From IMG/VR virus record IMGVR_UViG_3300017762_000073, positions 1-24,915 of that record: 24,915 nucleotides of DNA, one strand, 5' to 3'. The stretch is from a virus. The notes beneath the pieces were generated by a model. It made no database searches. It was given only the letters and a program-made list of their open reading frames with translations, and was not told the DNA's origin. The position numbers and the translations under genes are program-made. The first letter of the stretch is position 1, and each line of letters starts with the position of its first letter. Shown here piece by piece: positions 2,878 through 13,684 of the stretch.

Positions 2878-3222
2878 ATGAAAATAAAAGTAATACAGAA
2901 TAAAACAGAAGCAAATCACATGATGCACATGTCAGGTTTTAAAGCTTACCTAGGTGGTTGTATTTCATATAAAGATTTAGTAGATACTTTTGGCGAGCCT
3001 ACTTTTACCCCGGAAGATAGTGGAGATGGTAAAGTAAAATACGAATGGGTATTTATGTTTGACGATTCGTACTTCAGCGTATATGATTGGAAAACTTATG
3101 ACGAAGAATACACTCGCAACGAATATACTAACTGGCATATTGGTGGTCATACTGGCGCAATAGATACTAATAATTTTATTAATGCTGTATTAGATCAAAT
3201 GCGCGAATCACTTTTTGCCTAA
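2878..3222 (+). CDS. Hypothetical protein, first gene of the 2878-6031 operon
   Basis: A 114-residue protein with no family I can name. It is rich in aromatic and acidic residues: WVFMFDDSYFSVYDWKTYDEEY around residues 59-80 and NWHIGGHTGAID around 87-98. There is no membrane segment. The start follows the conserved ACAGAGCAATG leader of promoter copy A. Its stop TAA shares one base with the next gene's ATG (TAATG at 3220-3224), so the two are translationally coupled. Being the promoter-proximal gene of a candidate base-modification operon suggests an early accessory role, but nothing in the sequence identifies an activity. Confidence 0.75.
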   Translation: MKIKVIQNKTEANHMMHMSGFKAYLGGCISYKDLVDTFGEPTFTPEDSGDGKVKYEWVFMFDDSYFSVYDWKTYDEEYTRNEYTNWHIGGHTGAIDTNNFINAVLDQMRESLFA

Positions 3223-4124
3223 TGAAAACAGCAATAGTAGGAATCTTAAATAACCCGGCCAAGTCGTTAAATTCACACTCGGCTGGCTGGGTTCATATTG
3301 TAAAAGAACTATTAGACAAGGATGCTGTAATAGAAACCGAAAATGGCAATTGGGACCAGTATGATAGGCTAATAATCTGCCATGGTACTAATTACAAAGC
3401 CGGATCGTTTAATGTTATAGGTGGCATACAGCAATCTCATATAGACAGATTACAAAAGCTTAATAATTTTAAGGGTATTATAGATAGCTTAGATGATTTT
3501 GATATACTAGAGTATATTGAAAAGCGTAAAATAGATTTTAAATGGACTAAGACTAAAGAGTTTTATAATAAAATATCTTTGCCTGATTACGAGAAAGAAG
3601 TAATCGGAGATAGTCATTCCTTGTCAGCTTGGAGACCTGGCTATAGTATTAATAGGAACGATGGTAAAACATTGTTTGGTTTTTTAAAAAACCCTAGCGC
3701 TAAAAAAGGATCAATAATATACTTTGGAAATATAGATATAAGATTCCATTTACCAAGACAAGACTCTGCTTTATTTGCTACGCTGCAATTAGCTAATAGA
3801 TATGTCGATTACTGTAAAGAAAATGATTTAACCCCTGTTTGTTTACTACCTATAGAAAGTGAATCAAGGAAAATACCTAAAAGCGGTATGTATAAGGGTC
3901 AGCCATTTTATGGCGATCAAAAGCTAAGATCTAAATTAGTAGAAATATTTAACGCGGTATTACTAGATAATTTAACCAATGTTATTACATGGCCAGAAAA
4001 ATGGTATAAAGATCTTTTGTTTTACGAGAATGAAGTAATGGAATCTAAGCAATCTGTGCACGTAAGGCCTAAGCATTATAAGCATAATTTCAATAAAAAG
4101 ATTGATGAGCCATTACTCTTTTGA
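3222..4124 (+). CDS. GDSH-motif (SGNH-like) protein of the candidate DNA-modification cassette
   Basis: A 300-residue protein. Residues 1-90 look like a Rossmann-type alpha/beta start (TAIVGILNNP, then RLIICHGTNY). The central part holds GDSHS (129-133) and FGNIDIRFHL (168-177), which recall block I and the GExDxRxH block of GDSL/SGNH-fold proteins. The C-terminus is basic and histidine-rich. SGNH members are esterases or acyl/carbohydrate-acting enzymes. I see the two motifs but cannot prove the fold. It is coupled to its upstream neighbour by TAATG and overlaps the next gene by 20 bp. The company of a transferase-like protein and a PLP enzyme suggests a step in synthesising or attaching a small-molecule group. 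It could also be a glycosyltransferase-like protein. Confidence 0.7.
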   Translation: MKTAIVGILNNPAKSLNSHSAGWVHIVKELLDKDAVIETENGNWDQYDRLIICHGTNYKAGSFNVIGGIQQSHIDRLQKLNNFKGIIDSLDDFDILEYIEKRKIDFKWTKTKEFYNKISLPDYEKEVIGDSHSLSAWRPGYSINRNDGKTLFGFLKNPSAKKGSIIYFGNIDIRFHLPRQDSALFATLQLANRYVDYCKENDLTPVCLLPIESESRKIPKSGMYKGQPFYGDQKLRSKLVEIFNAVLLDNLTNVITWPEKWYKDLLFYENEVMESKQSVHVRPKHYKHNFNKKIDEPLLF

Positions 4125-5145
4125 TATAAAGCCAGAGCTTCTTGAAATGCTAGATGATTATCATAATAAGTCTATGCTTATGGAGCGCCATGTAATAGAG
4201 AAAAAACCTTTTGAAGGTGATCTAGAAAAAAAAGTAAATGACGATTTAATCTATAATGTTCCTATATATGATATGGGATCAAGGAAATATGCTGCTTTTT
4301 GTAACTTTACTCAAGCAGTTGTTCATAAGGAAAAGGACGTAAAAGGAAATGGTAAATGGTTTAAAGATGCTGAGATAGCTGAGTTTGATTTGATATACAT
4401 GATGTATTTATTTAGACTATGCGGTAGCGGTATAAATTACAAGCCGATGCCTAGTGGTAATAATTTATTTGAAGACATACCTTTTTTAGGTAAACATGGA
4501 TTCGGTAATTTCTGGATTGTAAACTCATTATTGCAAGGTAAGTACACAAAAAAAGAATGGATAAAGGATTTAATAGATCATGACGGGCCTTTTAGCAATA
4601 ACAAGGGTTATATAATACCTCAGTTTAGTATTGGATTAAAACGATACATAGTAGATTACTCGGAAGATTTTTTACGCGCGTTATATAGCGAATTTACAAA
4701 GAGTAAAATGCAGATATATCAATTGACCGACCTTGGTAATAAGATACTAAAAGAAAAATATGGATTTAAACGGCAAAACTTTGTTTTAACAGCGCTAGCT
4801 GCTGACGTGGCAGAATATTTCCCTGAATATATAGACGCTAAAGGAATGGTTTATGCAGGTACTAATGCTCAATTATGCATTAAGACATTGTTTAAAAAAA
4901 CAAAAAGAATAAAAGACTTTGATTTCCTAAATGAAGTCTTACACTTTCAATCAGAAAGATATAATTTAAATCCAATAGATTGCGAAGATAGTCGTAATTG
5001 TGACGTTATAAGATACTTAAGAGAATACCAGTCTAAGTGGCATATACAAAAAAATAATGGCAAAACAATGAAAAATAATTCTAGTTTAAAAAATAAACTA
5101 GGTAACAAAGGATATTATGAATATACAAGCGAAATTCAAAAATAA
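4105..5145 (+). CDS. Candidate amino-acid:DNA transferase / aGPT-Pplase-like protein
   Basis: A 346-residue, mostly helical protein. The frame can be opened at a TTG (4102), but the ATG at 4105 is preferred. The central signature FRLCGSGINYKP (near 109-120) and GKHGFGNFWI (130s) is followed by GFKRQNFVLTALAADVAEYFP and a GTNAQLCIKTLF stretch. By memory of family patterns, FRxxGSG...HGFGN resembles the phage amino-acid:DNA transferases (ADDT, also called alpha-glutamyl/putrescinyl-thymine pyrophosphorylases). These replace an activated hydroxymethyl base with an amine-containing group. The family assignment is tentative; no P-loop kinase domain is present. The lysine/asparagine-rich tail overlaps the next gene by 29 bp. 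Its position beside a PLP enzyme supports the reading, since known hypermodification loci pair these functions. Confidence 0.6.
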   Translation: MSHYSFDIKPELLEMLDDYHNKSMLMERHVIEKKPFEGDLEKKVNDDLIYNVPIYDMGSRKYAAFCNFTQAVVHKEKDVKGNGKWFKDAEIAEFDLIYMMYLFRLCGSGINYKPMPSGNNLFEDIPFLGKHGFGNFWIVNSLLQGKYTKKEWIKDLIDHDGPFSNNKGYIIPQFSIGLKRYIVDYSEDFLRALYSEFTKSKMQIYQLTDLGNKILKEKYGFKRQNFVLTALAADVAEYFPEYIDAKGMVYAGTNAQLCIKTLFKKTKRIKDFDFLNEVLHFQSERYNLNPIDCEDSRNCDVIRYLREYQSKWHIQKNNGKTMKNNSSLKNKLGNKGYYEYTSEIQK

Positions 5146-6031
5146 TCAAATAGGGATAGAAAACAAAGACCTAGATACTTTTAGGAATTTAGATTACTAT
5201 TTAGATATAACAAAAGATCATAAGAGCAGCTTTGAAGATTTCTGCATAATAAATGAAAATGGTTTTAACGTAATAGATGAATCTAAGGCTTGTCCTGTTG
5301 GTTACAAAGCTAGAGCAGGTGAGTTATTAGTGCAGACGTTAAAAAAGCAAGGTGTAAAAGAAATCGTTTACGTTCAACCTAGAACAGGGTTCGCTGGTAT
5401 AAGTCTTTCTTATTTATGTAAAATACATAATATGGACTTAACGCTAGTTATGCCTGCCTCACAAAGAGTAAGTGATCACCAGGCCTTGTGTATAGAATAC
5501 GGTGCTAAACCTTTATTTGTTAGAATAGCTGCTATGCCAGTGGCTAATTCTTATGCAAAAAAATATGCACAACAAAGTTCTAGTAGAAAATACATAAAGT
5601 TAGGCTTGTATCACGAGCTCGTAATTGCCTGCGGAGTAAGATGCGTATACGATTATTTTGTAGACAAGGAAAAACCTCGCGTAATGTGGTCAGCAATATC
5701 AACAGGTGTACTAACTAGAACACTACAAATAGCATTGCCAGATACCGAATTTAGAGCCGTGGCAGTAGCTAGGAATATACAACAAGGAGAATTAGGTAAG
5801 GCTAAGTTTTATGGCTACCATAAGAATTTTACATCAATTAGTGATTATGTACCTCTTGGATTCGAAACAGAACCGACTTATGATGCTAAAGCTTTTGACT
5901 ACATGAATAGATACGGAGATCAAGGTGATTGGTTTTTTAATGTTGCCGGTGTTGCCCCAGAGCCTACCATAAATAGAAAAGATATACATTCTTATAGGGA
6001 ATGGAAGGATTTAAGCGATCTTAACTTATAG
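5117..6031 (+). CDS. Fold-type II PLP-dependent enzyme (cysteine/threonine-synthase-like)
   Basis: A 304-residue pyridoxal-phosphate enzyme of the tryptophan-synthase-beta/cysteine-synthase superfamily. CPVGYKARAGE places the probable Schiff-base lysine at Lys64. PRTGFAGISLSYL (89-100) corresponds to the substrate-binding loop and helix of SGNTGIALA type. LTLVMPASQRVSDHQALCIEYGA (109-130) is the conserved segment that follows it. WSAISTGVLTRTL (191-203) sits where the phosphate-binding glycine-rich loop normally lies, although it is glycine-poor for that loop. Such enzymes perform beta-elimination or replacement on amino acids. It starts at an ATG behind AAAGGATATT and overlaps the previous gene. 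In DNA hypermodification loci, PLP enzymes process an amino-acid adduct or its donor; the exact reaction here is unknown. It is shorter than cellular cysteine synthases mainly at the C-terminus. Confidence 0.8.
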   Translation: MNIQAKFKNNQIGIENKDLDTFRNLDYYLDITKDHKSSFEDFCIINENGFNVIDESKACPVGYKARAGELLVQTLKKQGVKEIVYVQPRTGFAGISLSYLCKIHNMDLTLVMPASQRVSDHQALCIEYGAKPLFVRIAAMPVANSYAKKYAQQSSSRKYIKLGLYHELVIACGVRCVYDYFVDKEKPRVMWSAISTGVLTRTLQIALPDTEFRAVAVARNIQQGELGKAKFYGYHKNFTSISDYVPLGFETEPTYDAKAFDYMNRYGDQGDWFFNVAGVAPEPTINRKDIHSYREWKDLSDLNL

Positions 6032-6190
6032 TCAGATCTTGACAGATCATGTTAGCAGCTGTTAGTTATTGACAGATATTAAAACTCAATATCAGTTATT
6101 GTTAGCAGTTGTTAGTTATTGTCAGCTATTGTAACAACATGTCAGTTATTGTCAGTTATTGTTAGCAGTTGCTAGCCATAGTAGCTATAT
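6031..6190. repeat. 10-bp-period tandem array (16 units), candidate protein-binding or origin element
   Basis: Starting at the last base of the upstream stop codon, 160 bp can be cut into sixteen 10-mers. Twelve begin exactly G-N-N-A-G, with consensus G-T-Y-A-G-Y-W-R-T-T. Examples are GTCAGTTATT at 6141 and 6151, and GTTAGCAGTT at 6101 and 6161. The 10-bp period is not a multiple of three and no frame is coding, so selection is on DNA or RNA. One unit per helical turn puts every site on the same face. An A/T-rich promoter block follows at 6214. The possible roles are iterons, a regulator array or a packaging site. Confidence 0.85.
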
Positions 6191-6213
6191 TTTTACCATG
6201 TTTTAAAAAAAAT

Positions 6214-6256
6214 TTTAAAAAAAGTTTTTTATTAATCTGGATTGTATGTATATTCC
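6214..6256 (+). promoter_or_regulatory. Phage promoter copy B
   Basis: Carries the same 21-bp A/T block as the copies at 2803 and 13615 (6214-6234). It is followed by TGTATATTCC (6247-6256) and a leader with AACAATAACAAAACTACAGAATGATG-type spacing to the ATG at 6284. It drives the recombination/nucleotide operon. The 10-bp array lies immediately upstream, so array occupancy could regulate this promoter. Confidence 0.75.
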
Positions 6257-6283
6257 TTATAACAACAATAACAAAACTACAGA

Positions 6284-9112: not shown

Positions 9113-9361
9113 ATGGAAACAGAATATAAAGTACTGCAAAAAATAGGCCCTTATGATGGCCCTTATCAGAAAAATTTAGTAACTTATATACTAGTTTCTA
9201 AAAGCAAAAGAGTGGCGTGGCATGAAAAACCTGGCAGAAGGTTCCCTCATAACAAAGGAGACGTTGTCACAGGTATAGCGCTTAAAGGCGATAATATAGA
9301 TTACAAAAAATCAAATCCTAAACTAATATTAAAACAACTTAATTTTTATGGAAATATTTAA
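9113..9361 (+). CDS. Hypothetical protein after SSB
   Basis: An 82-residue basic protein, start 2 nt after the SSB stop. It contains a short repeat, GPYDGPYQ (residues 12-19), encoded by near-identical 12-bp units at 9147-9170, and HEKPGRRFPHNKGDVVTGIAL in the middle, which has a small beta-barrel look. There are no Cys and no membrane segment. It overlaps the MazG-like gene by 14 bp. The function is unknown. Confidence 0.7.
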   Translation: METEYKVLQKIGPYDGPYQKNLVTYILVSKSKRVAWHEKPGRRFPHNKGDVVTGIALKGDNIDYKKSNPKLILKQLNFYGNI

Positions 9362-9662
9362 CAATATAAGATCATGGGCTAACGAAAGAGGCCTTTATGA
9401 CAAAGGAGATACTAAAACTCAATTTATTAAATTAAATGAAGAGGTAGGAGAATTAGCAGAAGCTATACTAAAAAAAGATGAAAAAGAACTTATTGATGCT
9501 ATAGGTGATATAGTAGTTGTTCTTACAAATTTAACATATTTAGCAAATGTTGATATAATTAGATCAGATTATATTAGGATAGAAGACTGTGTACGATCGG
9601 CATATAATGAAATAAAAGATAGAAAAGGCAAAATGGATAATGGAACCTTCAAAAAAGCATGA
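9348..9662 (+). CDS. MazG-like nucleotide pyrophosphohydrolase (candidate dCTPase-type)
   Basis: A 104-residue all-alpha NTP pyrophosphatase. The metal-binding ExxE motif appears as NEEVGELAEAI (30-40: Glu31/Glu32/Glu35). The partner helix has DAIGDIVVVLTNL (50-62: Asp50/Asp54). This is the minimal single-domain MazG fold that cleaves (d)NTP to (d)NMP plus pyrophosphate and is common in phages. It sits directly before the dCMP deaminase and two genes before the TS homologue. That order matches a T4-like scheme where dCTP is hydrolysed to feed dCMP hydroxymethylase. Substrate is inferred from neighbours only. It overlaps the deaminase by 23 bp. Confidence 0.88.
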   Translation: MEIFNNIRSWANERGLYDKGDTKTQFIKLNEEVGELAEAILKKDEKELIDAIGDIVVVLTNLTYLANVDIIRSDYIRIEDCVRSAYNEIKDRKGKMDNGTFKKA

Positions 9663-10047
9663 TTTATACATGCGTATAGCCGAGTCAGTAGCTTTAAGTA
9701 GCCACTGTAAAAGAAGCAAAGTTGGTTGTATTATTGTAAAAAATGATAATATTATAGGTATTGGCTACAATGGTACGCCTTCTGGCTTTGAAAATGACTG
9801 CGAATGTAATAACGTTACAAAAGACGAGGTATTACATGCAGAGTCAAATGCAATAACAAAATGTGCTAAAAGCACTATAAGTTCAGACGGCTCTATAATG
9901 TATTGTACATTAATGCCTTGTTTTAATTGCGCTAAATTAATAATTCAAAGCGGGATTAGGCAAGTTGTATACAAAGACGATTATAGAAATAGATCAGGAA
10001 TAGAACTATTAACAAAAGCAAACATAGAGGTAAATAAATATGAGTAA
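9640..10047 (+). CDS. dCMP deaminase (ComEB-like)
   Basis: A 135-residue zinc-dependent deaminase. HAESNAI (67-73: zinc His67, catalytic Glu69) and MPCFNCAKLI (92-101: Cys94/Cys97) form the classic active site. SKVGCIIVKNDNIIGIGYNGTPSGF (26-50) is the characteristic dCMP deaminase N-terminal segment that helps bind the nucleotide. The enzyme converts dCMP to dUMP. Viral family members are longer (T4 Cd is about 190), so this is the compact type. It starts within the MazG-like gene, with an ATG at 9640, and overlaps the DUF6378-like gene by 8 bp. In the context of a dCMP hydroxymethylase it would set the dCMP/dUMP split. Confidence 0.93.
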   Translation: MEPSKKHDLYMRIAESVALSSHCKRSKVGCIIVKNDNIIGIGYNGTPSGFENDCECNNVTKDEVLHAESNAITKCAKSTISSDGSIMYCTLMPCFNCAKLIIQSGIRQVVYKDDYRNRSGIELLTKANIEVNKYE

Positions 10048-10312
10048 ATCAATATGCGAAATAGCGCATGAAATAGTAAACGAAAGAAGCGAAGAAAAAG
10101 AAAGAGAATACGGGCCTTTCTCTGAAGGGATGGAAAGAGCCGCGCATATATTATCAGGATTAATAGGATACGAAGTATACGCTGAGCACATGTACTTAGC
10201 GATGATAGCTTTAAAATTAAGTAGAGAATCATACAACCATAAAAAGGATAATTTATTAGACGCGATAGCATATTTACAAGGATTAGAAAATTATTATAAT
10301 GAAAACAAATAA
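10040..10312 (+). CDS. DUF6378-like phage protein
   Basis: A 90-residue helical protein. The pattern REYGPFSEGMERAAHI...MIALKLSRESYNHKKDNLLDAIAYLQGLE matches a common phage family (DUF6378) that is often coded among nucleotide-metabolism genes. The acidic/basic helix pair LSRE...KDNLLDA looks like the ExxE/D-type arrangement of all-alpha NTP pyrophosphatases, so a distant MazG-like function is possible. It overlaps both neighbours (the deaminase by 8 bp, the TS homologue by 14 bp). The family call is from memory of the consensus. Confidence 0.75.
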   Translation: MSKSICEIAHEIVNERSEEKEREYGPFSEGMERAAHILSGLIGYEVYAEHMYLAMIALKLSRESYNHKKDNLLDAIAYLQGLENYYNENK

Positions 10313-10943
10313 CGCAACAACAGCCTTTGAGTATTATTACGATTTAATTATAAATATCGGCAAATCAAAAAAAGGCACAAAATATTTGAGAAATATTTCA
10401 TTTACAATGCTAAACCCATTGGATAATGTTATAAGTACAAAATGGAGGAATTTTAACTTAGACTACGCTGAAAGAGAATGGCAATGGTATTTATCAGCTA
10501 ATAGAAACATAAGCGCCATGGAGCCACCTGTGCCTAAAATATGGCAAGATATTAGCGATGATAATGGCGATACATTTTCTAACTATGGTTGGCAGTGGCA
10601 AAGATCTAATCAGATTGAATATGTAATAAACGAATTGAGATCTAATCCTACGAGTAGGAGGGCTTGTATCTCGATATATGATGCAAAAGAAAACCAAGAT
10701 TGGGCAAGAGACGTTCCATGTACATTAGCCATCTGTTTTTATATAGAAGATGATTCTTTATGCATGAGCGTATACATGCGATCTAATGATCTAGTCTTTG
10801 GATTTTGTAATGATCAATACTGCTTTAGTAAGCTACAAGAGTATATAGCCAAAGAAATTAATATAAAAATTGGTTATTATCATCACTCTGCTACAGATTT
10901 ACATATATACAAAAGACACTTTGATCTGAAGAAAAATGGATAA
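10299..10943 (+). CDS. dCMP hydroxymethylase-like member of the thymidylate synthase family
   Basis: A 214-residue TS-family enzyme. Its landmarks are PKIWQDISDDNGDTFSNYGW (79-98), NPTSRR (116-121), the nucleophile Cys141 in DVPCTLA (not the usual LPPCH), MRSNDLVFGFCNDQYCFSKL (160-179), and HIYKRHF (202-208). In thymidylate synthase the loop after RS.D..LG ends in a dUMP-binding Asn; here it is Asp172. The Cys-to-Asp distance is 31, as in T4 dCMP hydroxymethylase (Cys148, Asp179). From memory, SNYGW, SRR, CT and MRSNDxVFGFxND all match T4 gp42. Asn-to-Asp switches base preference from dUMP to dCMP. The enzyme probably makes 5-hydroxymethyl-dCMP. A plain ThyA is unlikely; dUMP hydroxymethylase remains possible. 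Confidence 0.85.
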   Translation: MKTNNATTAFEYYYDLIINIGKSKKGTKYLRNISFTMLNPLDNVISTKWRNFNLDYAEREWQWYLSANRNISAMEPPVPKIWQDISDDNGDTFSNYGWQWQRSNQIEYVINELRSNPTSRRACISIYDAKENQDWARDVPCTLAICFYIEDDSLCMSVYMRSNDLVFGFCNDQYCFSKLQEYIAKEINIKIGYYHHSATDLHIYKRHFDLKKNG

Positions 10944-12430: not shown

Positions 12431-13607
12431 CTTTGATGCAAATAAGCTTTATTCATTAACCTATAATAGCAGGAAACCCTACGTAGTTCACCAAGGTGGC
12501 ACCTCAAGTGGAAAGACTTATGCTATATTGCAAGTCTTGATAATGAAAGCAGCTACAATTCCCAACTTAGTAATAACAGTAGTAGGCCAGGATATACCTA
12601 ACTTACGAGTAGGTGCTTATAGAGACGCTCAAAATATCATATTTAATGATCCATTTTTTACGCAAGAGCTTAAAGATCATAACAAGAGTAATAGGGTTTT
12701 TACTTTTAGTACTGGGTCTAAGATTGAGTTTAATTCATATAATGACGAGATAGATGCTAGATCAGGTAAAAGAACTCATTCTTTTTTTAATGAGGCCAAT
12801 GGTATAGATTATGGCATATTTGAGCAGATCAGTATGCGAACTACCGAGCAGACTATTATAGACTTTAATCCATCTGCGGCATTCTGGGCACATGAAAGAT
12901 TACAAAGCAGGGATGATGTTGATTGGTTTGTGTCTACATTTAGAGATAATGCATTTATACAATCTAGTATCAAACAAAAGATACAAAGTTACGAGCCAAC
13001 TGATGAGAATATAAAAGCCGGTACAGCTAATCAATACCGATGGCAAGTATATGGATTAGGAGAGGTAGGTAGGTTAGAGGGCTTAGTTTTTCCTAATTTT
13101 GAGATCACAAGCGAGTGGCCTGATAATTACAAATGGAGATGCTTCGGGCTTGATTGGGGATATACAAATGATCCGACAGCTTTAGTAGAGATAAGGTACA
13201 ATGGTGGCGCACTATACTGGAAAGAACATATTTACCGAAAGCAACTTACCAACCAATATATTAGTCGCTTAATAAAAGAACTAAACATAACTGATGAAAT
13301 AGTAGCAGATAGTGCTGAACCTAAAAGTATTGCCGAGTTACGCAATACAGGTATATGGGTAAAGCCTGCTAAGAAGGGTAAGGATTCTGTTATGTTTGGA
13401 ATCCAGTTGCTACAAGATTATCCGATTAAAATACATACTAAAAGTAAAAACGTGATAGAGGAATTTAGTAGTTATACATGGGCAAAGGATAGAAGTGGCA
13501 CATCGACAAACAAGCCTATAGATGATTTTAACCACGCTATAGACGCAGGTAGGTATGCAATAATGGACAGAATGAAGAAAAAAACACTAGATATTTCACT
13601 TGCTTAA
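12420..13607 (+). CDS. terL: Terminase large subunit (PBSX/Terminase_3-like)
   Basis: A 395-residue packaging motor. The ATPase part has Walker A GGTSSGKT (26-33), an acidic Walker-B region SFFNEANG (121-128), and DFNPS (148-152) as the coupling motif. The nuclease part has FGLDWGYTNDPTAL (242-254: Asp245), VADSAEPKS (295-303: Asp297) and DDFNHAIDAGRYA (368-380: Asp369/Asp375). It pumps DNA into the prohead and cuts it to unit length. The start must be a non-ATG codon. A TAA is in frame immediately before TTG 12420, and the next in-frame ATG comes after Walker A. It overlaps the small subunit by 11 bp and is near the typical 400-residue length. Confidence 0.95.
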   Translation: MNHSFDANKLYSLTYNSRKPYVVHQGGTSSGKTYAILQVLIMKAATIPNLVITVVGQDIPNLRVGAYRDAQNIIFNDPFFTQELKDHNKSNRVFTFSTGSKIEFNSYNDEIDARSGKRTHSFFNEANGIDYGIFEQISMRTTEQTIIDFNPSAAFWAHERLQSRDDVDWFVSTFRDNAFIQSSIKQKIQSYEPTDENIKAGTANQYRWQVYGLGEVGRLEGLVFPNFEITSEWPDNYKWRCFGLDWGYTNDPTALVEIRYNGGALYWKEHIYRKQLTNQYISRLIKELNITDEIVADSAEPKSIAELRNTGIWVKPAKKGKDSVMFGIQLLQDYPIKIHTKSKNVIEEFSSYTWAKDRSGTSTNKPIDDFNHAIDAGRYAIMDRMKKKTLDISLA

Positions 13608-13614
13608 AAAATAA

Positions 13615-13656
13615 TTTAAAAAAAGTTTTTTATTATTAAATAAGTTTGTATATTGC
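13615..13656 (+). promoter_or_regulatory. Phage promoter copy C
   Basis: The 21-bp A/T block at 13615-13635 is identical to the other two copies. It is followed by TGTATATTGC (13647-13656), the leader GAACAATTAATAACAAACTACAGA, then ATG at 13685. It starts directly after the large terminase stop. An apparent TTG start at 13646 falls within the promoter core and is not used. Confidence 0.75.
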
Positions 13657-13684
13657 TCTTGAACAATTAATAACAAACTACAGA

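Follow-up and report, generated by a model that had tools for sequence, protein, structure and literature searches.

A gene trio found beside dCMP-hydroxymethylase-type genes in phages: a predicted pathway for amino-acid-based hypermodification of 5-hydroxymethylcytosine

Introduction

To our knowledge, amino-acid-based hypermodification of DNA through hydroxymethyl groups has so far been described mainly, if not only, for thymine. In the M6-like phages, 5-hydroxymethyldeoxyuridine (5-hmdU) in the DNA is reportedly phosphorylated, the transferase ADDT is said to attach an amino acid, and a pyridoxal phosphate (PLP) enzyme is said to be among those that later reshape it (work attributed to Lee et al., 2018 and 2022). 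Described here is a related gene set in a 24,915-base virus record of IMG/VR (IMGVR_UViG_3300017762_000073, positions 1–24,915; this whole stretch is termed the window). Three overlapping genes encode a GDSH-motif protein, a protein built entirely of helices (termed MID) and a PLP enzyme of fold-type II, and a thymidylate-synthase (TS) homologue is found in the same window. The genes probably constitute a post-replicative and kinase-independent pathway that hypermodifies 5-hydroxymethylcytosine (5hmC) with an amino-acid-derived group.

The thymidine pathway of M6/SN1-type and ViI phages has a similar cluster, consisting of a TS-type hydroxymethylase, a protein of the ADDT/HMUDK fold (HMUDK is the 5-hmdU DNA kinase) and a fold-type II PLP enzyme. 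The hydroxymethylase of these phages is of the uracil type, with Asn at the position of residue 177 in Escherichia coli ThyA, whereas that of the cassette is of the cytosine type, with Asp177. The cassette also differs in having an SGNH-hydrolase-like protein in place of the helical and P-loop parts of HMUDK (30 records searched), and in that its MID is unrecognized by the ADDT profile. No radical SAM gene was seen in the window; the thymidine pathways occur with or without one.

Cytosine modifications described thus far, i.e. T4 glucosylation, RB69 arabinosylation, 5-carbamoyloxymethylcytosine and 5-carboxymethylcytosine-glycine, use other enzymes. T4-type phages likewise form 5hmC in the nucleotide pool with a gp42-like enzyme, but the decoration genes are unrelated and no glucosyltransferase is recognized in the cassette. 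The 5hmC carbamoyltransferase system found by MetaGPA shares the Asp177 TS homologue, a deoxycytidine monophosphate (dCMP) deaminase (PF00383/PF14437) and PRA-PH/MazG-type companions, but employs a carbamoyltransferase where GDSH, MID and PLP proteins are found here (PMC8670742). In the CmoX/CmoY system an amino acid ends on phage cytosine, as is proposed here, but through a C5 transferase dependent on carboxy-S-adenosylmethionine and an ATP-using amide ligase that act on DNA; the cassette has a hydroxymethylase and lacks such enzymes (PMC12783734). An open-access literature search found no description of the present gene set, which leaves prior publication possible.

Conservation of the gene trio

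The trio is arranged head to tail in the window at positions 3222–6031. The coordinates, which follow the open reading frame (ORF) list, confirm those given in an earlier reading of this DNA made from its letters (the sequence-only reading). Lengths are in amino acids (aa).

3222–4124, + strand: GDSH protein, 300 aa; N-terminal alpha/beta region and SGNH-hydrolase fold; proposed acyl-transfer/activating or esterase component for 5hmC
4105–5145, + strand, ATG at 4105: MID protein, 346 aa; all-helical; proposed DNA-base-binding transferase, distant fold relative of ADDT and HMUDK_hel
5117–6031, + strand: PLP enzyme, 304 aa; fold-type II; proposed decarboxylase or tailoring enzyme for the attached amino acid

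With a single sequence as the query, one near-identical phage (L002) was recovered, along with L003 and L004, two distant loci that keep the gene order and whose MID proteins are 25–26% identical. A first MID profile led to 69 loci and a broader one to 563 relatives in IMG/VR, 80 of which were retained; the gene-content counts rest on 143 distinct inspected loci. Annotated phage genomes gave no match to the window in a nucleotide search or to MID in a protein search. The MID family falls into six deep clusters.

MID is present at all 143 loci, PLP at 140 and GDSH at 134. The order GDSH-MID-PLP is found at 118 loci, GDSH-PLP-MID at nine and MID-PLP-GDSH at one; at another (L204), GDSH and MID are fused in one 713-aa frame. 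Loci outside these three orders and the fusion represent contig ends, duplications or a split. Those without one of the trio genes are contig ends, except L167, where GDSH sits elsewhere on a 183-kb contig. The arrangement, with ∼143 loci, is far beyond chance. Since the trio is kept through rearrangement and fusion, the three proteins very probably act together. The residues picked out by the sequence-only reading (GDSH, GSG/HGFGN and Lys64) are invariant or nearly so in the family alignments.

Both SGNH proteins and PLP enzymes of fold-type II occur widely in metabolism, and the Pfam and NCBIfam matches of the PLP enzyme are PALP and cysteine synthase. This raises the question of whether the trio has an auxiliary metabolic or cell-surface role unconnected with DNA, for example in amino-acid or lipid ester metabolism. 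Such a role is highly improbable, given that the trio is strictly accompanied by a TS homologue of dCMP type and often by dCMP deaminase and MazG-like genes, and given the DNA-modification fold of MID. In addition, ∼85,000 cellular genomes contain only two matches, both in metagenome-assembled genomes.

The substrate base

The nucleotide-metabolism genes lie downstream of the trio:

9348–9662, + strand: MazG-type nucleotide pyrophosphohydrolase, 104 aa (PF03819, 6e-8; PF01503, 2.9e-5); substrate assigned by inference, possible role in dCTP depletion
9640–10047, + strand: dCMP deaminase, 135 aa; companion at 91 of 143 loci
10040–10312, + strand: DUF6378 small protein, 90 aa; companion at 93 of 143 loci
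10299–10943, + strand: TS homologue, dCMP-hydroxymethylase type, 214 aa; Cys141, then Thr, and Asp172

Replacement of Asn177 by Asp in TS switches the substrate from deoxyuridine monophosphate to dCMP. In the window homologue, Cys141 corresponds to ThyA C146 and is followed by Thr, as in T4 gp42 (position 147), and Asp172 corresponds to ThyA N177 changed to Asp. At least one TS copy with Asp at this position is found at all 115 loci that have a complete copy in the fetched DNA. At four further loci the Asp177 copy is absent from the flanks but located elsewhere on the contig, which brings the total to 119 of 119. The window and all 119 loci have both the TS catalytic Cys and Asp at ThyA N177, the combination expected of a dCMP hydroxymethylase. 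Seven loci (L175, L177, L178, L180, L183, L191 and L192) have an ordinary Asn177 synthase as well, within a few kb of the Asp177 copy. The TS proteins of one clade (L020–L028) are closely gp42-like. Relatives of SN1, which hypermodify thymine, show Asn at 177 in 30 of 30 ADDT loci and 25 of 25 HMUDK loci, two sets that share contigs.

A published study selected environmental phage DNA for modified cytosines; there, TS positions 177 and 147 were the two top TS markers, and dCMP deaminase and MazG-type companions were also reported (PMC8670742). As the window TS homologue has both Asp177 and Thr147 and neighbours genes for a dCMP deaminase and a MazG-type protein, the substrate base would be cytosine, most likely as 5hmC, and hydroxymethyl-dC in the phage DNA is strongly indicated. 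That the base appears to be cytosine, and not thymine, was missing from the sequence-only reading.

The MID protein

The window MID displays the motifs R104-x-x-G107-S108-G109 and H131-G132-F-G-N135, and residues R104, G107, S108, G109, G132 and N135 are invariant or nearly so in the family. The sequence-only reading took this FRxxGSG...HGFGN pattern as a transferase signature. The pattern is present, but SN1 relatives do not conserve it as a signature: the invariant motifs of their ADDT and of the helical domain of their 5-hmdU DNA kinase differ by letter.

The same reading also suggested a comparison of the 346-aa protein with ADDT/aGPT-Pplase profiles, and this gave no match. MID has no family match in Pfam, PHROGs or NCBIfam, nor in a profile search of PDB sequences. 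Comparisons by hhalign with ADDT and HMUDK profiles built from SN1 relatives, both local and global, gave unusable probabilities of ∼0.1–1.4%. With PF18723 (HMUDK_hel), the best single family member showed a weak match (E 0.031). By fold and gene context the cassette resembles the thymine pathways, but on sequence profiles MID cannot be counted among the established ADDT or HMUDK proteins. Because these comparisons gave nothing usable, the relationship is argued from fold, motif order and gene context.

An AlphaFold2 model based on an alignment of 47 relatives is confident and all-helical (pLDDT 90.9, pTM 0.89). It has no meaningful match in the PDB, and thus no solved relative reveals a mechanism. 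A Foldseek search of the BFVD predicted structures revealed similarity to A0A6J5L8T5, annotated as an ADDT-domain protein (E 8e-11, TM 0.72), and to A0A6J5LCY1 (E 7e-4). Other neighbours are clade-1 aGPT-Pplases (E ∼1e-2 at probability 1.00), the 5-hmdU DNA kinases of SP10 (probability 0.98), PhiW-14 and phiRSL1, and the GDSH-bearing ORF233c of Aeromonas phage 31. All annotated BFVD matches at probability >0.5 are ADDT, HMUDK/aGPT-Pplase or phage 31 ORF233c.

The conserved motifs of HMUDK are D..RFCN..R..D / R..N / AY.I / G.F...D / GPG..RG / CE.DK..R, and those of MID are D.L..IYD...R..A / R..GSG / G...P.F / FV..A...D / G.NA / ED...CD..RY. By eye, and in an unscored comparison, these appear to be six motifs in a common order. 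From the model, motif order and context, MID appears to be a distant fold relative of the ADDT/HMUDK superfamily.

Two loci (L017, 763–1758; L019, 1046–2041) have a second, diverged MID copy that lacks the GSG/HG motifs and is situated between GDSH and the normal MID. Perhaps it is a partner subunit.

The GDSH protein and the known kinase

The GDSH motif is at residues 129–132 of the window protein. In the family S131, H132 and H280 are invariant or nearly so, with Ser131 and His280 strictly invariant. Block III reads GN-x-D and not the canonical GxND. The structural model is confident (pLDDT 94.6) and matches the SGNH hydrolases 4s1p, 3mil and 1z8h in the PDB with probability 1.00, as well as the O-acetyltransferase PatB (probability 0.96). 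The family therefore has the SGNH fold together with the catalytic Ser and His, and the GDSH protein that the sequence-only reading saw as an addition to known pathways is by its predicted structure of the SGNH type. Its PHROG matches, 13881 and 17781, are function-unassigned families.

In Aeromonas phage 44RR2.8t, ORF233c (795 aa, PHROG 17781; locus L007, 8001–10388) joins a GDSH domain to a helical domain resembling HMUDK_hel, its C-terminal part matching PF18723 at E 7.7e-4. This domain is nearer to HMUDK_hel than MID is, and no PLP relative was detected in the phage. Together with the L204 fusion, the 44RR2.8t fusion supports the view that GDSH and MID form one functional unit. Aeromonas phages 44RR and 31 have gene 42 and no glucosyltransferase, and the T4-phage literature asks what, if anything, decorates their hydroxymethylcytosine (PMC2993671). 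ORF233c is a candidate for the unexplained cytosine decoration of such a gene-42 phage.

Neither HMUDK_hel (PF18723) nor the P-loop domain (PF18748) was detected in any of 30 cassette-bearing records, including contigs of 127–183 kb. SN1 and an M6-like record, which served as positive controls, both scored strongly, and the SN1 gene set (HMUDK, ADDT and PLP) was checked in SN1 itself. The remark in the sequence-only reading that no hydroxymethyl-DNA kinase is visible agrees with these searches. Since most of the 30 records are fragmentary, and since MID itself is related only remotely in fold, the claim of absence is confined to the known kinase; the known kinase appears to be missing, and phosphorylation by other means is not thereby denied.

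At 45 loci the cassette contains a small thymidylate-kinase-like gene. It was considered as a possible hydroxymethyl-DNA kinase and rejected, as most loci, among them the window, lack it, and as it has no PF18748 match in the searched records. It is better explained as a 5hm-dCMP kinase. Such a gene would also fit a scheme in which the enzymes modify nucleotides of the pool (5hm-dCMP or 5hm-dCTP) ahead of polymerization and not DNA, and the 5hmC carbamoyltransferase works on 5hmdCTP as well as on DNA (PMC8670742). Nevertheless, action on the pool is quite unlikely: the MID fold family is known from post-replicative thymine modification (ADDT and the 5-hmdU DNA kinase), and most cassettes manage without the kinase-like gene.

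The PLP enzyme

Among 134 aligned PLP sequences Lys64 is invariant, and the phosphate loop S195-T196-G197 and the motif Y255-D256-x-K258 are conserved. The family is assigned to fold-type II. Comparison with the PLP profile of SN1, an M6-like phage, gave a probability of 97.5% (E 6e-12), and the C-terminal YD-x-K motif is common to both. The cassette enzyme can thus be regarded with confidence, from its sequence profile, as a relative of the SN1 enzyme. By homology, it may decarboxylate or reshape a DNA-bound amino acid. The sequence-only reading's pairing of a transferase-superfamily protein with a PLP enzyme gains support from the fold search, the PLP profile comparison and the universal dCMP-hydroxymethylase-type companion.

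Members of this phage PLP clade occur fused to or adjoining ParB-like and DNA-methylase-like domains in vB_EliS_R6L gp1 (L005, 10744–13175) and Mae-JY30 (L006, 5976–8294), where the proteins are annotated 'DNA modification methylase'. This arrangement possibly represents another DNA modification with a PLP step.

Proposed pathway

In the first step, which is strongly indicated, the dCMP hydroxymethylase (10299–10943) would make 5-hydroxymethyl-dCMP, which enters DNA. In the second, the GDSH and MID pair may act on 5hmC in the DNA: MID, with its ADDT/HMUDK fold, would grip the base, and the SGNH protein would activate or acylate the hydroxymethyl group in place of the kinase of the thymine pathways, so that an amino-acid-type group is attached. 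In the third, the PLP enzyme may decarboxylate this amino acid or reshape it in another way, by analogy with the presumed role of its relative in M6-like phages. This would yield a cytosine that bears an amine and protects the DNA against nucleases. That the trio acts on 5hmC in DNA is likely; the amino-acid nature of the group and the role of GDSH are what we infer from the relatives of these proteins.

Several observations weigh against this pathway. The GDSH family lacks the canonical SGNH Asp, the DxxH position being Q, G or S. PF18724 (ADDT) shows no match at E ≤ 1 to the window MID or to any of 47 family members, hhalign against an SN1-based ADDT profile gave 0.5%, and MID superposes only loosely on HMUDK proper (TM ∼0.4–0.5). 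Asp177 alone cannot separate hydroxymethylation from methylation, and thus sets the base and not the last step. The loci are related by descent: of those with the full set of four genes (the trio plus the TS homologue), 38 differ by >15% in MID and count as non-redundant. The window is a 24.9-kb fragment. Lastly, in Aeromonas phage 25 a GDSH gene without MID or PLP adjoins one for UDP-galactopyranose mutase, and GDSH may accordingly have sugars or acyl groups as its substrates.

The phage 25 gene, the failure to detect a PLP relative in 44RR2.8t with its GDSH fusion, and the structural match of GDSH to SGNH esterases and PatB would also fit decoration of 5hmC by an acyl or sugar-acyl group and not an amino acid. 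GDSH would then be an O-acyltransferase that forms an ester on the hydroxymethyl group or on a sugar attached to it, MID would present the base and the PLP enzyme would only supply or edit the acyl donor; the known 5hmC O-carbamoyltransferase is a case of simple O-acylation of 5hmC in phages (PMC8670742). This is unlikely, in that cassette loci invariably carry a PLP gene where the contig leaves space, the closest profile relative of its product comes from an amino-acid-based DNA pathway, and the fold relatives of MID include an amino acid transferase.

At the phage 25 locus (L224, 1776–5047), the UDP-galactopyranose mutase gene, a Rossmann/glycosyltransferase-like ORF and the GDSH gene are side by side. 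The neighbourhood suggests a galactofuranose-type decoration of hydroxymethylcytosine.

Organization of the locus

Two features precede the trio:

2792–2865, + strand: 74-nt A/T-rich promoter-like repeat ahead of the operon, with three copies in the window (the others at 6203–6276 and 13604–13677); promoter role putative
2878–3222, + strand: 114-aa ORF, first gene of the unit; no conserved companion of the trio

The 114-aa ORF overlaps GDSH by 1 nt at 3222, GDSH overlaps MID by ∼20 nt (4105–4124) and MID overlaps PLP by 29 nt (5117–5145). As the trio and the 114-aa ORF are located between the repeat copies at 2792 and 6203, positions 2878–6031 look like one transcription unit, and probably are. 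The sequence-only reading placed the trio behind a 'phage promoter A', which corresponds to the repeat; the first gene behind the repeat is the 114-aa ORF, and the trio follows. Neither this ORF nor the metallophosphatase at 1896–2786 tracks with the trio, and both were rejected as cassette parts.

Sigma70-type promoter matches in the region are at no more than chance level. The repeat copies end in TATATTG-type boxes. These recall, we assume, Bacteroidetes promoters, and the host may be a bacteroidete. Tandem ∼10-bp units (TGTTAGCAGT / TGTCAGTTAT and similar) lie between the PLP gene and the next repeat copy (6043–6175). Such an array is also present 3′ of the PLP gene in L002; the window array looks like iterons or a regulatory array.

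Implications

A wider proposal is more tentative, and perhaps doubtful: that these loci represent a widespread class in which amino-acid-derived groups are placed on 5hmC whose hydroxymethyl is not phosphorylated, with an SGNH protein and its ADDT/HMUDK-fold partner as a two-part transferase and the PLP enzyme trimming the product. The Aeromonas T4-like phages would use the fused pair.

If the pathway is correct, it would represent a new branch of hypermodification, a cytosine version with another activation chemistry, present in hundreds of uncultivated phages. It would also provide a new enzyme pair that writes amines onto 5hmC, useful for epigenetic labelling, and a specific answer to what, if anything, decorates the hydroxymethylcytosine of Aeromonas phages 44RR and 31.

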